Source: Extensimonas perlucida (GTDB lineage Bacteria; Pseudomonadota; Gammaproteobacteria; Burkholderiales; Burkholderiaceae_C). From it: a DNA stretch of 64,000 bases. Position numbers and translations under genes: made by a program. The first letter of the stretch is position 1, and each line of letters starts with the position of its first letter. The DNA is taken from the NCBI RefSeq assembly GCF_007655255.1, contig NZ_VMYE01000002.1, positions 247,472 through 311,471 of the forward strand. The letters are read 5' to 3'. Shown here one piece after another: positions 5,245 to 64,000 of this stretch. The notes under the pieces are model-generated. The model saw only the letters and a list, made by a program, of their open reading frames with translations. It made no database searches and was not told the DNA's origin.

Positions 5245-5988
5245 TCAAGCGCTGGCCGCGAGCCGCTCGGCCAGCCGCGTCAGCGCGTGCTGCACCGTGG
5301 CGGCGCGTATTTGCGCGCGCGTCGTCAAGCCGTCCTCGGCAAAGTGCCGTACCTCGCTGTGCAGCAGCGGCGCATGATCGGGCGCGCAATCTGGCTGGGT
5401 GGCCGGCAGACACCAGCCGAACCACACCGTGCCCACGGGTTTGTCGACGCTGCCGCCGCTCGGGCCCGCGACGCCGGTGACGGCGAGGCTCAGCTGCGCG
5501 TGTGCATGCGCGAGCGCGCCGCTGGCCATCGCACGCACCACGGGCTCGCTCACGGCGCCGTGGCGCGCGATCAGCGCCGCGTCCACGCCCAGCAGCTCGG
5601 TCTTGGCCGCGTTCGAGTAGCTCACGAAGCCGCGCTCGAACCATTGGCTCGAACCCGCAAGCTCGGTGCAGGCCGCGGCGATCAGCCCGCCCGTGCAGCT
5701 CTCGGCCGTGGCAAGCATCCAGCCGCGCCGCAGCAGCTGCGCAGAAATAAGGGTCAAAACAGGCTCTAGGAGCCTGTCGGACTTTGGAATCGTCGGCTGC
5801 GAATGCGCCGCAGCGGCCCATTTTTTACCGTCTTCTTGCCCCATAGCACCACTATGGGGCGGCGAATCCGGCAAAAACTGGCCTCGCTGGGGCGCATTCT
5901 CGCTTTCGACGCCCAAAGCCCGACAGGCTCCTAGCGCAGGTATATCAAGCGCTTGCAGCTCTTGTTTTAGGAGTCCCTGCGCGCTCAT
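5245..5988 (-). CDS. pncC: CinA C-terminal family protein (nicotinamide-nucleotide amidohydrolase) with repeat-derived N-terminal insert
   Basis: The 247-residue product contains the full CinA C-terminal deamidase domain from about residue 80: 'ATAESCTGG', 'GSSQWFERGFVSYSN', 'AVSEPVV', 'AVTGVAGPSGGS' and 'KPVGTVWFGW'. The family hydrolyses nicotinamide mononucleotide to nicotinate mononucleotide, recycling pyridine nucleotides. The start at 5988 overlaps the pgpA stop in an ATGA, so it is likely coupled to pgpA. The N-terminus is odd: residues 1-19 come from short palindromic repeat B and residues ~20-74 from repeat element A, inserted in frame. Ordinary family members start about 20 residues before the catalytic motif. 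Translation might instead begin at a downstream codon (for example the ATG in 'GAMGQED'), so the true N-terminus is uncertain. Confidence 0.85.
   Translation of the reverse strand: MSAQGLLKQELQALDIPALGACRALGVESENAPQRGQFLPDSPPHSGAMGQEDGKKWAAAAHSQPTIPKSDRLLEPVLTLISAQLLRRGWMLATAESCTGGLIAAACTELAGSSQWFERGFVSYSNAAKTELLGVDAALIARHGAVSEPVVRAMASGALAHAHAQLSLAVTGVAGPSGGSVDKPVGTVWFGWCLPATQPDCAPDHAPLLHSEVRHFAEDGLTTRAQIRAATVQHALTRLAERLAASA
5751..5968. repeat. Family B palindromic repeat, split by a family A element
   Basis: The outer parts (5751-5769 and 5931-5968) join, once the family A insert and one CTAG are removed, into a sequence matching the short palindromic repeat seen at 10.5, 30.0 and 46.5 kb. 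On the minus strand it carries the GAGCTG..AGCGCTT..GCGCTAG core. It lies inside the 5' end of the cinA reading frame. Confidence 0.65.
5770..5930. repeat. Family A palindromic-end element, full copy (161 bp), inside cinA
   Basis: Terminal inverted repeats of about 17 bp (GAGCCTGTCGGACTTTG at 5770-5786, its near-complement at 5914-5930) flank a core with a 9-bp inner hairpin (5838-5846 with 5852-5860). The copy is flanked by CTAG at 5766-5769 and 5931-5934, which reads as a 4-bp target duplication. It has no stop codon in the cinA frame. Apart from five substitutions it matches the 63863-64000 copy over the ~137 shared bases. No transposase is present, so any movement would be in trans. Confidence 0.85.
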
Positions 5989-6533
5989 GCAAAAAACCTC
6001 CAGAGCGCGATCACGAACAGCGTGCAAAACGCCGCCACGAAGTCGTCCCACAAAATGCCGAAGCCGCCGCGCCAGCCCAGCCCCTTGCACACGCGGTCGG
6101 CCCAGCCCACGGGGCCGGGCTTGGCGGCGTCAAAAAAGCGAAACAGCACGAAGGCCCAGAACTGCCCCCAGCCGCCCATGGGGCTGGCCAGCCACAGCAC
6201 GAGCCAGAAGGCCACGATTTCGTCCCAGACCACGGCGGGCGGGTCGGCCACGCCCAGGTGCCGCGCCGTCAGCGTGCAGGCCCACCAGCCAAGCACGGCG
6301 CCCGCGGCGATCAGCAAACCGATCTGCAGAGGGCTCAGCCACTGCTGCAGCACGAGGTAGCTGAGCCAGGCCCAGAGCGTGCCCACCGTGCCCGGCGCAA
6401 TGCGGCTCAGCCCCGCGCCTGCGCCGAGCGCGAGGAAATGCGCCGGATGCAGCAGCAAAAAGCCCACGCCGGGCCGCAGCGGACGGCGCGGGGGCGGGGT
6501 GCTCGAAGGCTTGCTCACAGAAAGGGTTGGCAT
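5985..6533 (-). CDS. pgpA: Phosphatidylglycerophosphatase A
   Basis: The product is a 182-residue membrane protein that dephosphorylates phosphatidylglycerol phosphate to phosphatidylglycerol in the inner membrane. PgpA-type features are 'GLSRIAPGTVGTLWAW' near the N-terminus, 'VVWDEIVAFWLVLW', 'FVLFRFFDAAKPGPVGWADR' and the terminal 'GFGILWDDFVAAF' helix. The start at 6533 (MPTLSVSKPSS) is chosen because the preceding in-frame residues have no family character. The stop overlaps the cinA start by 4 bp. The upstream 235 bp to the divergent gene hold the promoter of each side; I see no other gene there. Confidence 0.9.
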   Translation of the reverse strand: MPTLSVSKPSSTPPPRRPLRPGVGFLLLHPAHFLALGAGAGLSRIAPGTVGTLWAWLSYLVLQQWLSPLQIGLLIAAGAVLGWWACTLTARHLGVADPPAVVWDEIVAFWLVLWLASPMGGWGQFWAFVLFRFFDAAKPGPVGWADRVCKGLGWRGGFGILWDDFVAAFCTLFVIALWRFFA

Positions 6534-6768
6534 GTCGCCACGCTGGGCTGGTTCGTCTGTTTTGGGGTTCGGGCGGCGGGCAGGTCCATGAAAAGTGGAT
6601 GGCGCCGAACCCAAAGGGTTGCAAATTCTAACGAGCCTGCTTGGGCGCGGTTGCGGTGCGGGTCGCCACGGGCAGGGCAGACGCTTCATGCCCATGCCCG
6701 TGCGCGGGCAGCGGACGCAGCGCCATCCCATGCAAAAATCCGCCGACCTCCGTGCCTGAGACCATGCC

Positions 6769-8550
6769 ATGCCCAGCGATCTCCCCGATGCCTTTGGGCA
6801 AGCCCAGACCTTGCTCGAGCGCCTGCAGCGCCAGCCGCAGGCCTTTGGCCATGCAGCGCCCAGTGTGGAGCGGCTGCAGACGCATATCTCGTGGCTGCTG
6901 CTCGTGGGCGAGCATGTTTACAAGTTCAAAAAGCCGCTGAAGCTCGAATTCCTCGACTTCAGCACGGCGGCGCTGCGGCGCGCGGCCTGCGAGGAGGAGC
7001 TGCGCATCAACCGGCGCACGGCGCCGCAGCTGTACCTCGACGTGGTGGCGGTGGTCGAGGACGATGCCATATCCCAAGCGCAAGAGTCGGGCAGCTTGCG
7101 CGTGCTGCCCGCGGCCGAGGCCGACGCCCGCGGCCTGCAGGCGTTGGCACATGCCGTGCACATGCGGCGTTTTGCGCAGCACGATCTGCTCGCGACGATG
7201 CTCGCACAAGGGCGCCTGCTGCCCGCGCACATCGACGCGCTGGCGCGGCACGTGGCGCAATTCCACGCTGCGGCGGCGGTGGCCGCGCCGGATGCGGGCT
7301 GGGGCAGCGCGGCTGCGGTGCGCGCGCCAGTCATCGAGTGCGTGCAGGCCGTGCAAAGCGTGGCTGCGGCAGCGCTGCCCGCGCTCGCGCCCATGGTGCA
7401 GGCGCTCGCACAGTGGTGCGCGGCGCAGGGCGAGGCGCTTGCGCCGGTGTTCGCGGCGCGCCTGCAGCAAGGCTGGGTGCGTGAATGCCACGGCGACCTG
7501 CATCTGGGCAACCTGGTGCTGCTGGCGGGCGCGCCGGTGCTGTTCGACGCGATCGAGTTCAACCCCGCGCTGCGCTGGATCGACGTGATGGCGGACGTGG
7601 CCTTTCTGGTCATGGACTTGCACGTGCACGGCCGTGCCGACCTGGGCTGGCGCTTTCTCAACGCCTGGCTCGAGCGCACGGGCGACTACGCGGGGCTGGC
7701 GCTGCTGCGCTACTACAGCGTCTATCGCGCCTTGGTGCGCGCGCGCGTTGCGGGGGTGCGGCTCGCGCAGCTGCACGCCGAGGCGGGTACATGTGCGGGC
7801 GAGGTGCAGGCCCAGGCACAGGCCCAGGCGCAGGCCCAAGCACAGGCCCAAGCAAGGGCCGAAATACAGGCCGAAGCACAGGAAGCGGCAGGCGAAGTGC
7901 AGCGCTACGTGCAGCTTGCAGCCTCTTTGAGCGCGCCGGGGCCCCGTTGGCTCGGCCTCGCGCATGGCTTTTCCGGGGCCGGCAAGACCACGCAGTCGCA
8001 GGCCTTGGTCGCGCGTGGCGTGGTGCGCGTGCGCGCCGATGTGGAGCGCAAGCGCCTGTTCGGCCTTGCGCCCGAGGCCTCGAGCGCGACCGTGCCCGGC
8101 GGCATTTACACGCCCGAGGCCACCGAACGCACCTATGCGCGCCTGGCCGAGCTCGCGCGCGCGGTGCTGCAGGCGGGCTACCCCGTGCTCGTCGATGCCA
8201 CGCTGCAGGACGGCGCCCAGCGCGCGCGTTTCATCGCGCTCGCGGCAGAGTTGCGCGTGCCTTGGCGCATCCTGTCCTTCGAGGCGCCGCCCGAGGTGCT
8301 GCGTGCGCGCATCACCCAGCGCGAGCAGGCGGGCGGCGATGCGTCCGAAGCCACGCTTGCGGTGCTGGAGCGGCAGCTGGCCAAGGCGCAGCCGCTGTCG
8401 GCGCACGAAGAGGCGCACACGCTGCATCTGGACACGACGCAGCCCATCGATTGGGATGCCGTGCTGGCGCAGCTCTTGCCGGTGGCCGGGCCGGGCGCTG
8501 CTACCAATGAAACGGCTGCGGCAGCAGGTACAGCAGCACCGCGGTCATGA
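6769..8550 (+). CDS. Two-domain protein: aminoglycoside-phosphotransferase-like kinase fused to P-loop kinase/ATPase
   Basis: The product is 593 residues. The N-terminal half (about 1-340) is an APH-like domain: 'VYKFKKPLKLEFLDFS' fits the nucleotide-binding lysine region and 'ECHGDLHLGNL' (His241) the catalytic loop, with 'FDAIEFNPALRWIDV' following. The C-terminal half (about 393-560) carries a Walker A 'GFSGAGKTTQ' (from residue 400), an early 'RADVERKRLFG' and 'PVLVDATLQ', as in small-molecule kinases. The halves are joined by a glutamine-alanine repeat (347-366). Family knowledge: such fusions are annotated as bifunctional APH/AAA ATP-binding proteins with unknown substrates; real aminoglycoside resistance is not implied. 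The last 50 bp overlap the end of the convergent YqaA-type gene. Confidence 0.8.
   Translation: MPSDLPDAFGQAQTLLERLQRQPQAFGHAAPSVERLQTHISWLLLVGEHVYKFKKPLKLEFLDFSTAALRRAACEEELRINRRTAPQLYLDVVAVVEDDAISQAQESGSLRVLPAAEADARGLQALAHAVHMRRFAQHDLLATMLAQGRLLPAHIDALARHVAQFHAAAAVAAPDAGWGSAAAVRAPVIECVQAVQSVAAAALPALAPMVQALAQWCAAQGEALAPVFAARLQQGWVRECHGDLHLGNLVLLAGAPVLFDAIEFNPALRWIDVMADVAFLVMDLHVHGRADLGWRFLNAWLERTGDYAGLALLRYYSVYRALVRARVAGVRLAQLHAEAGTCAGEVQAQAQAQAQAQAQAQARAEIQAEAQEAAGEVQRYVQLAASLSAPGPRWLGLAHGFSGAGKTTQSQALVARGVVRVRADVERKRLFGLAPEASSATVPGGIYTPEATERTYARLAELARAVLQAGYPVLVDATLQDGAQRARFIALAAELRVPWRILSFEAPPEVLRARITQREQAGGDASEATLAVLERQLAKAQPLSAHEEAHTLHLDTTQPIDWDAVLAQLLPVAGPGAATNETAAAAGTAAPRS
7807..7854 (+). 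repeat. Four tandem 12-bp repeats coding for Gln-Ala linker
   Basis: Four consecutive copies of a 12-mer (CAGGCCCAGGCA and close variants) encode an alternating Q-A run. They fall exactly in the linker between the APH-like and P-loop domains. The unit length is a multiple of three, so copy-number change would alter linker length without a frameshift. Confidence 0.9.
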
Positions 8551-9087: not shown

Positions 9088-9151
9088 AGGAGCCTTTCGG
9101 ACTTTGGGCGGCGCAGCTGCAGCCGACGGGTACAAAGTCCGAAAGGCTCCT
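9088..9151. repeat. Family A mini-element (64 bp), internally deleted
   Basis: A perfect 19-bp inverted repeat (AGGAGCCTTTCGGACTTTG at 9088-9106, complement at 9133-9151) encloses 26 bases. Both ends and the adjoining inner bases match the ends of the full element at 5770-5930; the middle ~100 bp, including the inner hairpin, is missing. It lies in the leader region of dusB-fis. Confidence 0.75.
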
Positions 9152-61967: not shown

Positions 61968-64000
61968 ATGAAACGCGACACCCTCCCCCTCGAACCCCTG
62001 CCGCCGCAGCCCATCAGCCTCGACGTGCTGCGCGAAAAGTACCTCAAGCCCGGTGAAAGCGGCCTAGAAGCGCTGTACCAGCGCGTCGCGCGCGCTCTCG
62101 CCTCGGTCGAGGCGCCCGAGCTGCGCGCACGCTACGAAAAGCTCTTCCTCGCCAACCTGCACGCGGGCGCCATCGGTGCGGGGCGCATCATGAGCGCGGC
62201 GGGCACCGACATCCAGGCCACGCTCATCAACTGCTTCGTGCAGCCCGTGGGCGACTGCATCCAGGGCGTCGATGAAGACGGCTACCCCGGCATCTACGAG
62301 GCGCTGCGCGAAGCCGCCGAAACCATGCGCCGCGGCGGCGGCGTGGGCTACGACTTCTCGCGCATCCGCCCGCGCGGCGCCGAAGTGCGCGCCACCGCCT
62401 CGCTGGCCTCGGGGCCATGCAGCTACATGAACGTGTTCGACCAGTCCTGCTCCACGGTCGAGAGCGCCGGCGCGCGCCGCGGCGCGCAAATGGGCGTGCT
62501 GCGCATAGACCACCCCGACGTGCGCGAATTCATCACCGCCAAGCGCACGCCAGGACGCTGGAACAACTTCAACGTCTCGGTCGCCGTGACCGACGCCTTC
62601 ATGCAGGCCGTCGAGCAAGACCAGCCCTGGGAGCTCGTGCACCGCGCCCGCCCCAGCGCCGCGCTGATCGCCCAGGGCGCCTACCAGCGCGCCGACGGCC
62701 TGTGGGCCTACACGCGCCTGCCCGCGCGCACGCTGTGGGACAGCATCATGCAGTCCGCCTACGACTTCGCCGAGCCGGGCATCCTGTTCCTCGACCAGAT
62801 TCAGCGCGACAACAACCTGCGCTACTGCGAAACCATCGAAGCGACCAACCCCTGCGTCACGGCCGACACCTGGGTCATGACGGCCAGCGGGCCCGCGCAG
62901 GTGGCCGAGCTCGTGGGGCGGCCGTTCAGCGCGCTGGTCGATGGCCGCGCCTACCGCGTGCAGAGCCAGGGCTTTTTCAAGACCGGCACCAAGCCCGTGC
63001 TGCGCCTGCAAACGCGCGAGGGCTACGGCCTGCGGCTCACGGCCGACCACCGCGTGCGCCGCGTGGCGCGCAAAACCCGCTACAGCCTCGAAGTGGAGTG
63101 GACGCCCGCCGCGCAGCTCGCCCCCGGCGACGAAATCCTGCTGCACGACCACCGCGCCGCCGCCGGCTGGGAAGGCCCCGGCACCGAGGCCGAGGGCTAC
63201 CTGCTGGGCCTGCTGATCGGCGACGGCACGCTGCAAGAACGCAAAGCCGTGCTCTCGGTCTGGGCGCCCGAGCTGCGCGCCGTGGGCAATGGAGGCCCGG
63301 GCAGCGTGGCCTACGCCGCAAACGGCGCCGCGGGCATCATGCAGGCGGTCGAAAGCGCCATCGAAGCACTCACACACCGCGCCGATTTCGCCGGCTTTCA
63401 GCGCCCCATCCCGGCGCGCGGCGAAGCACGCTTGGCCAGCGCCGCGCTGTGCCGCCTGGCGCATCGCCTTGGCATGTCGCCGCGCCGCAAGACCATCACG
63501 CCCGCGATGGAGCGGCAATCCTCGGCCTTCGCCTGCGGCCTGCTGCGCGGCCTGTTCGACGCCGACGGCTCGGTGCAGGGCAACCAAGAAAAAGGCGTCA
63601 GCGTGCGCCTGGCGCAAAGCGATCTGCCGCTGCTGCAAGCCGTGCAGCGCATGCTGCTGCGCCTGGGCATCGCGTGCACGCTGTACCGCGAGCGCCGCCC
63701 CGCGGCCGTGCGCGCCTTGCCCGATGGGCGCGGCGGCCTGCAGCCCTACGCCACGCGCAGCCAGCACGAGCTACTCATCAGCGGCGACAACCTGCGCGTG
63801 TTTGCCGAGCGCATCGGCTTTGCCGACACCGACAAAGCCGCGCGCCTGCAAGCGGCCCTGGCAGCCTGTCGGACTTTGGGCGTCGAAAGCGAGAATGCGC
63901 CCCGGCGAGGCCAGTTTTTGCCGGATTCGCCGCCCCATAGCGGGACTATGGGGCAAGAAGACGGTAAAAAATGGGCCGCTGCGGCGCATTCGCAGCCGAC
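61968..64000 (+). CDS. nrdJ: Class II (adenosylcobalamin-dependent) ribonucleotide reductase with intein, partial
   Basis: 677 residues are visible and the frame is open at the window edge. The N-extein (1-295) is NrdJ-like: 'LREKYLKPGESGLEALYQRVARALA', 'NCFVQPVGDCI' with the first active-site cysteine, 'ETMRRGGGVGYDFSRIRPRG', 'GARRGAQMGVLRIDHPDV' and 'YCETIEATNPC'. The normal continuation (CGEQPL) is replaced at Cys296 by an intein. The enzyme makes deoxyribonucleotides without oxygen, which suits its place beside nitrate respiration. Near residue 633 the frame enters a family A repeat element. The C-extein is outside the window. Confidence 0.93.
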   Translation, partial: MKRDTLPLEPLPPQPISLDVLREKYLKPGESGLEALYQRVARALASVEAPELRARYEKLFLANLHAGAIGAGRIMSAAGTDIQATLINCFVQPVGDCIQGVDEDGYPGIYEALREAAETMRRGGGVGYDFSRIRPRGAEVRATASLASGPCSYMNVFDQSCSTVESAGARRGAQMGVLRIDHPDVREFITAKRTPGRWNNFNVSVAVTDAFMQAVEQDQPWELVHRARPSAALIAQGAYQRADGLWAYTRLPARTLWDSIMQSAYDFAEPGILFLDQIQRDNNLRYCETIEATNPCVTADTWVMTASGPAQVAELVGRPFSALVDGRAYRVQSQGFFKTGTKPVLRLQTREGYGLRLTADHRVRRVARKTRYSLEVEWTPAAQLAPGDEILLHDHRAAAGWEGPGTEAEGYLLGLLIGDGTLQERKAVLSVWAPELRAVGNGGPGSVAYAANGAAGIMQAVESAIEALTHRADFAGFQRPIPARGEARLASAALCRLAHRLGMSPRRKTITPAMERQSSAFACGLLRGLFDADGSVQGNQEKGVSVRLAQSDLPLLQAVQRMLLRLGIACTLYRERRPAAVRALPDGRGGLQPYATRSQHELLISGDNLRVFAERIGFADTDKAARLQAALAACRTLGVESENAPRRGQFLPDSPPHSGTMGQEDGKKWAAAAHSQP
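62853..64000 (+). other. LAGLIDADG-type intein in nrdJ, partial
   Basis: The insert begins at Cys296 (CVTADTWVMTASG), which fits intein block A, and replaces the residue after the conserved A-T-N-P. Block B is 'LRLTADHRV' with His361. Two LAGLIDADG-like homing-endonuclease motifs follow, 'YLLGLLIGDG' (from 411) and 'LLRGLFDADG' (from 525), with acidic residues kept. The C-terminal splice motif (block G, His-Asn before a Cys/Ser) has not been reached by the window end, at least 382 residues in. Confidence 0.88.
63863..64000 (+). repeat. Family A palindromic-end element, copy truncated by window end, inside the nrdJ intein
   Basis: The sequence from AGCCTGTCGGACTTTGGGCG onwards matches the cinA copy with five substitutions in about 137 bases; three of these cluster in the loop and flank of the inner hairpin, whose 9-bp arms are unchanged. 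It is read in the same frame as in cinA, giving a ~45-residue peptide with three differences. No CTAG precedes this copy, and its right end is outside the window. Confidence 0.85.

Follow-up and report, generated by a model that had tools for sequence, protein, structure and literature searches.

A palindromic MITE-like element lying in frame inside protein genes of Extensimonas and probably mobilised by an IS1182-family insertion sequence

The window, a 64,000-nucleotide stretch of an Extensimonas (Comamonadaceae) genome, carries one copy of a palindromic element inside cinA and a second inside the intein of a gene resembling nrdJ, as well as a short decayed relative; it ends at position 64000 because the contig ends there. 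The features discussed below are as follows.
5245..5988, minus strand: cinA (CinA C-terminal family; PF02464, E = 7.9e-49), in which the in-frame element supplies residues 19-73
5766..5769, unstranded: left target-site copy CTAG, by direct reading; a single CTAG and no element in congener G002
5770..5930: 161-bp palindromic MITE-like element, its minus strand being the orientation read through in genes; at least 113 entries in the genome
5770..5787, plus strand: terminal inverted repeat GAGCCTGTCGGACTTTGG, of which the AGCCTGTCGGACTT portion is common to both ends of the genome's IS1182-family IS
5913..5930, minus strand: second terminal inverted repeat, one base different from GAGCCTGTCGGACTTTGG
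5931..5934, unstranded: right target-site copy CTAG, by direct reading
5985..6770, minus strand: upstream frame from the ORF list, its stop overlapping the cinA start (ATGA); presumably a phosphatidylglycerophosphatase
about 9090..9149, unstranded: decayed short relative with a 56-bp core, apparently intergenic and near a T run, seen by sequence inspection only
61968..64000, plus strand: nrdJ-like ribonucleotide reductase with an intein (PF02867, PF14528), cut by the contig end and continuing on contig C45
62853..64000, plus strand: intein, from residue C296 of the frame, its start set by eye at CVTADTW; continues on C45
63862..64000, plus strand: second element copy, inside the intein, in the orientation and phase of the cinA copy; cut by the contig end

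The preliminary description had reported a 161-bp palindrome with a CTAG repeat in cinA, and this is what the window holds: the element runs from GAGCCTGTCGG to CCGACAGGCTC (5770-5930), CTAG can be read at 5766-5769 and 5931-5934, and element plus 4-bp repeat do add 165 bases, or 55 codons. At this size the element is too short for a transposase frame. As RNA its minus strand is predicted to form a single hairpin of -121 kcal/mol (z = -13.5 relative to 200 dinucleotide shuffles), and Rfam returned nothing at gathering score for window positions 5600-6100. Within the 247-residue cinA frame PF02464 spans residues 79-242, and the insert enters in the phase that reads CTA then GGA. The same site is uninserted in two congeners, G001 and G002 (Extensimonas sp. 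H3M7-6), where hits have ungapped length; in the latter, where the site was also read in sequence, one CTAG stands without the element. Proof that cinA translation begins after the element had been named as something that would count against the reading. An ATG inside the element (high end at 5844) is a possible start, but the element-free G002 also has the sequence upstream of the insert, and has it in frame.

The intein copy offers a nested case. Contig C45 shares 106 identical bases with the end of the window, and the two contigs join through this copy. Read across the join, the nrdJ frame is open for 1251 residues up to the end of the fetched stretch and contains a complete intein end (...VHNC) followed by further NrdJ sequence; a mobile element thus lies in frame within an intein that itself lies within nrdJ. 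The host gene, which would have had to be dead for the earlier reading to fail here, is open and apparently intact. The cinA and intein peptides are indeed nearly identical and in the same frame (by eye, 3 of 45 residues and 5 bases differ). The implied CTAG on both sides of the intein copy was mistaken, the flanks being CTGG on one side and CTAG on the other.

From these two copies it had been proposed that a mobile repeat is tolerated inside proteins, and several comparisons had been suggested: a whole-genome nucleotide search, a peptide search, a tally of frame and orientation within genes, and a comparison with orthologues lacking the insert. All four were carried out. In the window's genome (3.58 Mb, 50 contigs), the end pattern matched 121 times on the forward and 122 times on the reverse strand, and a reversed control pattern 2 and 2 times. 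From the matches listed, which covered 100 of the 112 right ends, 100 of the 109 left ends and some of those from the pattern search, 118 anchors were collected, and at least 113 entries were extracted, 101 of them two-ended and 12 one-ended. The set is incomplete at its decayed end, the relative at about 9090 being absent from it. Core lengths of the two-ended copies were 157 bases in 89, 156 in three, 158 in one, 67 in four, 94 in two, 163 in one and 178 in one; the inserted length is the core plus 8, and cores of 157, 67 and 94 give 165, 75 and 102 bases, all multiples of three. CTAG stands at both edges of 64 of the 101 and at neither edge of 11 (three of which have equal 4-mers), and neighbouring copies share a single CTAG. 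Among the one-ended entries two are the halves of the intein copy, and another two could come from a single copy divided by a further insertion. Other DNA interrupts one-ended copies at L037/L212 and L178/L225; L037 and L212 end in matching sequence (by eye), as if another IS had entered the hairpin loop.

Copies within genes were identified by a coding test in which the flanks were joined and element orientation was ignored; the best coding frame had to cross the join and score positively in both flanks. Of 136 segments from the genes on which it was trained, the coding model assigned 117 to the correct frame. By this test 27 of the 101 two-ended copies were called in-gene and 74 were not, copies below the coding thresholds, those of cinA and the intein included, lying outside the 27. 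The host gene stays open in 27 of 27, which has a chance of 0.5^27 = 7e-9 if half were open. Moreover, 25 share one orientation and phase (CTA, GGA, GCC), the same as in cinA and the intein. The remaining two are both in the opposite orientation, one at phase 1 and the other at phase 0, where the stop codon normally present has changed. Phase-0 copies are therefore split 25:1 by orientation (p = 8e-7 under random orientation). The earlier description had counted it against itself should copies lie mostly between genes and in random frames; the frames are not random, but about three-quarters of the two-ended copies were indeed not called in-gene.

The sequence of the element itself bears on this bias. 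Over the 157-base core the favoured configuration is open in 87 of the 89 full copies and the opposite orientation at phase 1 in 80 of the 89, and the other two combinations that CTAG permits contain stops in 89 and 86 of them. Base composition would predict about 197 occurrences of CTAG in the window; there are 14, two of them at the element. Within host genes it falls six times at phase 0 and four times at phase 1. Tested against phase supply, the 25:1 split has p = 3e-5 for a 0.6 share and p = 0.004 for a 0.74 share derived from codon use, so that phase supply alone does not yield it. Greater hydrophobicity and the presence of three cysteines distinguish the phase-1 peptide and may explain its rarity. 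Changes to CCAG or CTGG were also noted at element edges, in a window where CTAG is rare. Such edge changes would fit repair-driven loss of CTAG.

The same configuration recurs in the congeners, Extensimonas vulgaris DSM 100911 and Extensimonas sp. H3M7-6, which were sampled at 30 of 111 and 30 of 97 right-end matches. Two-ended copies numbered 29 and 29, of which 3 and 10 are in-gene. All 13 of the latter, at least two of which are orthologues of copies in the window's genome, have the favoured orientation and phase, are multiples of three and are open. For insertion history, the 27 in-gene copies and eight others near gene ends or below threshold (in cinA and in TetR-type, CoxE-type, poly(A) polymerase, RDD, TonB-receptor, TsaD and AraC-type genes) were compared with both congeners. 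Out of these 35, an uninserted site was found in at least one congener for 26, five look filled in both, and four gave no call. Where the letters of the empty site could be read, which was done in the 13 plus-strand alignments only, they are CTAG in two, CTGG in four, CTCG in two and others in five. Turnover of the rare CTA codon or a short-lived CTAG target could account for so few CTAG sites, and the target rule is the less firm for it. Twelve filled orthologues at seven sites (L310, not orthologous to copy 49, was left out of the count) are all open despite sequence change. For instance, the RecG insert has lost much of its palindrome in both congeners and kept the frame, the insert of a DUF2944 protein carries an in-frame deletion in one congener, and that of an AraC-type regulator has 34 codons in the window's genome and 55 in H3M7-6.

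Further afield, element matches were found in 12 of 60 relatives searched, the window's genome among the 12, several being only short fragments. Six related genomes whose copies are 70-85% identical gave 14 loci; two of these, in two other genera, are in-gene, both in the favoured configuration. The named contigs of a wider scan held 36 end pairs, four of them in-gene, all from H3M7-6 and all in the favoured configuration; in-gene calls are possibly confined to H3M7-6 there for want of a suitable coding model. Related elements that insert 164 bases, which is not a multiple of three, occur in Lysobacteraceae (L090), Pseudoxanthomonas spadix (L103) and a Verrucomicrobia MAG (L127). None of these was called in-gene, and they form a possible natural control for the effect of frame. 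Among the matches listed the family reaches beyond Comamonadaceae, and Rickettsia is absent from the at least 108 stretches, as far as matches were listed.

The host proteins are diverse, and 26 of the 27 in-gene hosts have a Pfam match. They include a MurD-type ligase, FliK, EarP, a GGDEF/PAS protein, an AMP-binding enzyme, RimM, a cation antiporter, two HAD hydrolases, nitronate monooxygenase, an EF-Tu-type GTPase, CorC, gamma-glutamyltranspeptidase, YjeF, PdxA, glucokinase, an MFS carrier, peptidase M1, biotin ligase, a CheW-domain protein, Mpl (named from homologues), RecG, a class III aminotransferase, Sua5, a DUF2944 protein and pirin. Copies near gene ends lie in cinA, TsaD, AraC- and TetR-type regulators and others, and the congeners add GlmU-like, TauE and SSF proteins and, in E. 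vulgaris, a DUF2126/transglutaminase-like protein (L338). In the Sua5-like gene the inserts of E. vulgaris (L336) and of the window's genome (L237) stand at different positions and are likely two independent insertions. Glucokinase profile positions 1-312 match residues 57-427, spanning the insert, and when 31 MurD-type proteins are aligned it falls, in the MurD-type ligase, between the invariant G407 and L463. AlphaFold models of Mpl and the MurD-type ligase, themselves modest (mean pLDDT 63 and 69, from 30 and 31 sequences), place the insert, at a pLDDT of about 23-30, in the C-terminal domain, with a helix on one side of it and a strand on the other.

The insert peptide, used as a query in its favoured frame only (to which other frames are invisible), found 87 public proteins of many families. 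Of these hits 69 cover at least 54 of 57 positions, and 56 of the 69 have at least 20 residues on each side. Ten public proteins have their start at the methionine within the element or beside it, which means that gene callers can hide the insert. Singleton changes number 16 non-synonymous and 4 synonymous in in-gene copies (n = 29), and 30 non-synonymous, 12 synonymous and 3 stops in other copies (n = 60), where the mutational opportunities are 342 non-synonymous to 108 synonymous to 18 stop. Amino-acid changes are as frequent as they would be without selection, so the frame is kept and the peptide is not; selection for the peptide itself is unsupported.

Used as a query, the element end matched sequences on Pseudomonas plasmids, which pointed to a possible mobiliser; two were opened, and both have CTAG followed by CAGCCTGTCGGACTT on one side and AAGTCCGACAGGCTG followed by CTAG on the other, around an annotated IS1182 family transposase. 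That transposase in turn found matches in 3 of 36 genomes (the window's genome and 35 relatives), exactly the three Extensimonas, and the IS1182-family transposase of the window's genome scores 370 bits against NF033551 (cut-off 270). At L268 the IS reads CTAG and CAGCCTGTCGGACTT at one end and AAGTCCGACAGGCTC and CTAG at the other, with an IS1182-family transposase between, so that ends and flanks are as in the MITE, and in each congener IS and MITE adjoin with one CTAG in common (L266, L267). MITE and IS have only about 14-15 bp in common. For ISPse1, of the IS1182 family, the tabulated part of PMC3281130 gives '16/16' and '4', which are taken as repeats and duplication. Judging from these sequence comparisons, the IS1182-family IS of the genome is likely the mobiliser of the MITE.

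Within the 36-genome search there was no IS1182 match at 1e-20 in G006 and G015, with related copies up to 84-85% identical, or in G042 and G049, with copies 70-72% identical (G025 and G058 lie outside that search). Pairing element ends in the loci of the wider scan gave no autonomous element, and by eye L159 has no transposase between its ends. Phage and plasmid collections, which may omit records close to the window's genome, gave no whole-element match; viral contigs gave one match to an element end. With regard to classification, the element is short and transposase-free, shares its ends with an autonomous IS and is polymorphic for insertion, as the sites empty in a congener attest; it also has a target-site duplication, but the readable empty sites seldom carry CTAG.

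We think it very likely that the element is a MITE, probably placed at CTAG by an IS1182-family transposase, with a 55-codon open insert that in one orientation is predicted to add a translated loop and not to inactivate the gene. An IS1182 transposase would act on the MITE in trans and duplicate 4 bp. CTAG contains TAG, which would leave only two of the three phases possible inside genes; as the element is open at phase 0 one way and at phase 1 the other way, about half of the insertions in genes should stay in frame. Purifying selection would then clear the frame-breaking half, with the phase-1 peptide tolerated less. The ribosome would read through the hairpin, and the protein would carry a flexible loop. 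Over time the palindrome would decay, shortened by in-frame deletions, with the frame retained. Both transposition and translation are in this account deduced from sequence.

Other explanations have to be weighed against this one. An ordinary MITE that hits genes at random, its in-gene copies sitting in dead or dying genes, would agree with the many copies not called in-gene, and gene-disrupting MITEs are well known, as the relevant part of PMC10969869 describes. Such a MITE should not leave every in-gene copy open, here and in the congeners, with nearly all in one orientation and phase. Nor does it sit well with host frames that are otherwise open and include the MurD-type and GlmU-like enzymes, which are usually essential, or with orthologous inserts that stay open across species while their DNA changes, and we hold it to be most improbable. 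It is just as hard to believe that the insert is absent from the protein through RNA splicing, protein splicing or ribosome skipping. The very stable hairpin could favour skipping, and one copy does lie within a real intein, yet removal needs no open frame, no multiple of three and no single phase, and in-gene copies have all of these, the 75- and 102-base forms included; Pfam scans of the hosts (E <= 1e-5) also reported no domain for splicing across the insert.

A REP-type palindrome moved by a RAYT tyrosine transposase deserves the least credence of all. The window's genome does have one Y1 transposase, and REPs inside genes are known (PMC3733652, in the part that treats them), but such repeats measure 20-40 bp and carry GTAG or CGTC tags, whereas the element measures 161 bp and stands between two CTAGs, and its ends match IS1182-family ISs. 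The only RAYT-type gene (L262, C34:132729-133055) is flanked by an unrelated repeat of its own, AATTGGAATCTGACCCCAATT. Alternatively, the peptide could be kept for the benefit of the host, such as by serving as a flexible linker or a loop with a regulatory role, and old in-frame copies do persist in RecG, TsaD and others across all three congeners. Nevertheless, no amino-acid conservation goes beyond openness, the hosts are unrelated, and most of the sites compared are empty in a congener, all of which makes a host function very doubtful. The reading that we prefer, a mobile repeat tolerated in proteins, draws its strength from the same observations on frame, orientation and phase in this genome and its congeners, and the original proposal to that effect can stand.

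The phase fixed by CTAG, the 55 codons and the open frame fit together, and on balance we favour the view that a transposon lineage has come to enter genes without killing them, one IS1182-mobilised MITE acting genome-wide as a machine that adds loops to proteins, in at least three genera of Comamonadaceae. Somewhat more probably than otherwise, no palindrome tolerated in proteins would have had its mobiliser identified before this one, which also has a nested case in an intein. So far, palindromes in coding sequence have mostly been treated as an oddity of Rickettsia, where the weak selection on an obligate parasite could be an excuse for them. The same behaviour is now seen in an apparently free-living, GC-rich betaproteobacterium, at about a hundred copies in each of three congeners. 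There is a likely transposase, the target is a preferred one, and the stages can be seen (empty, filled, and decayed but in frame). Whether transposons can build new protein segments thereby becomes a question for laboratory test, as does the way in which so stable a hairpin in the mRNA is accepted by ribosomes and by the proteins.

Among known systems, the Rickettsia palindromic elements are the closest in behaviour, and the element shares with them in-frame insertion in unrelated protein genes. It differs in its betaproteobacterial host and in having a candidate mobiliser (an IS1182-family IS) and a preferred target (CTAG), neither of which, to our knowledge, is known for the Rickettsia elements; the two are likened by behaviour. 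In-frame palindromes of Rickettsia are described in PMC10969869, PMC6649704 and PMC3733652; the first two give them as about 150 bp long, in frame in unrelated genes and each coding for a peptide, with a loss of repeat identity over time, much as here. IS1182-family ISs such as ISPse1 have short terminal repeats and a 4-bp duplication (PMC3281130, in its tabulated part), and the genome's own IS shares ends and CTAG with the element, which differs in having no transposase gene and only the ends in common. According to the sections of PMC5896051 on QMITE1 of Coxiella burnetii, that MITE likewise overlaps annotated ORFs and adds coding sequence, but it has 300-400 bp, variable duplications of 2-3 bp and short ORFs of its own, 19 of them wholly within copies in RSA 493. 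The GTAG- and CGTC-tagged REPs are also palindromic and sometimes lie in genes; as covered in part by PMC3733652, they differ in being 20-40 bp long and mostly intergenic, with other tags and the GTAG class tied to RAYT transposases. Coding palindromes in mitochondria of Nematomorpha resemble the element as long inverted repeats within coding sequence, but the pertinent text of PMC6649704 has them as perfect repeats, thought to be actively maintained and distinct from the Rickettsia elements. In the open-licence PMC literature no described equivalent was found, whether a link of IS1182 to MITEs or to CTAG or coding palindromes elsewhere; the claim that Comamonadaceae have none described holds to that extent, but the family itself is wider than Comamonadaceae. 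Without claiming membership of the Rickettsia palindromic elements, we would file the element best as an IS1182-type MITE that appears to work as they do.
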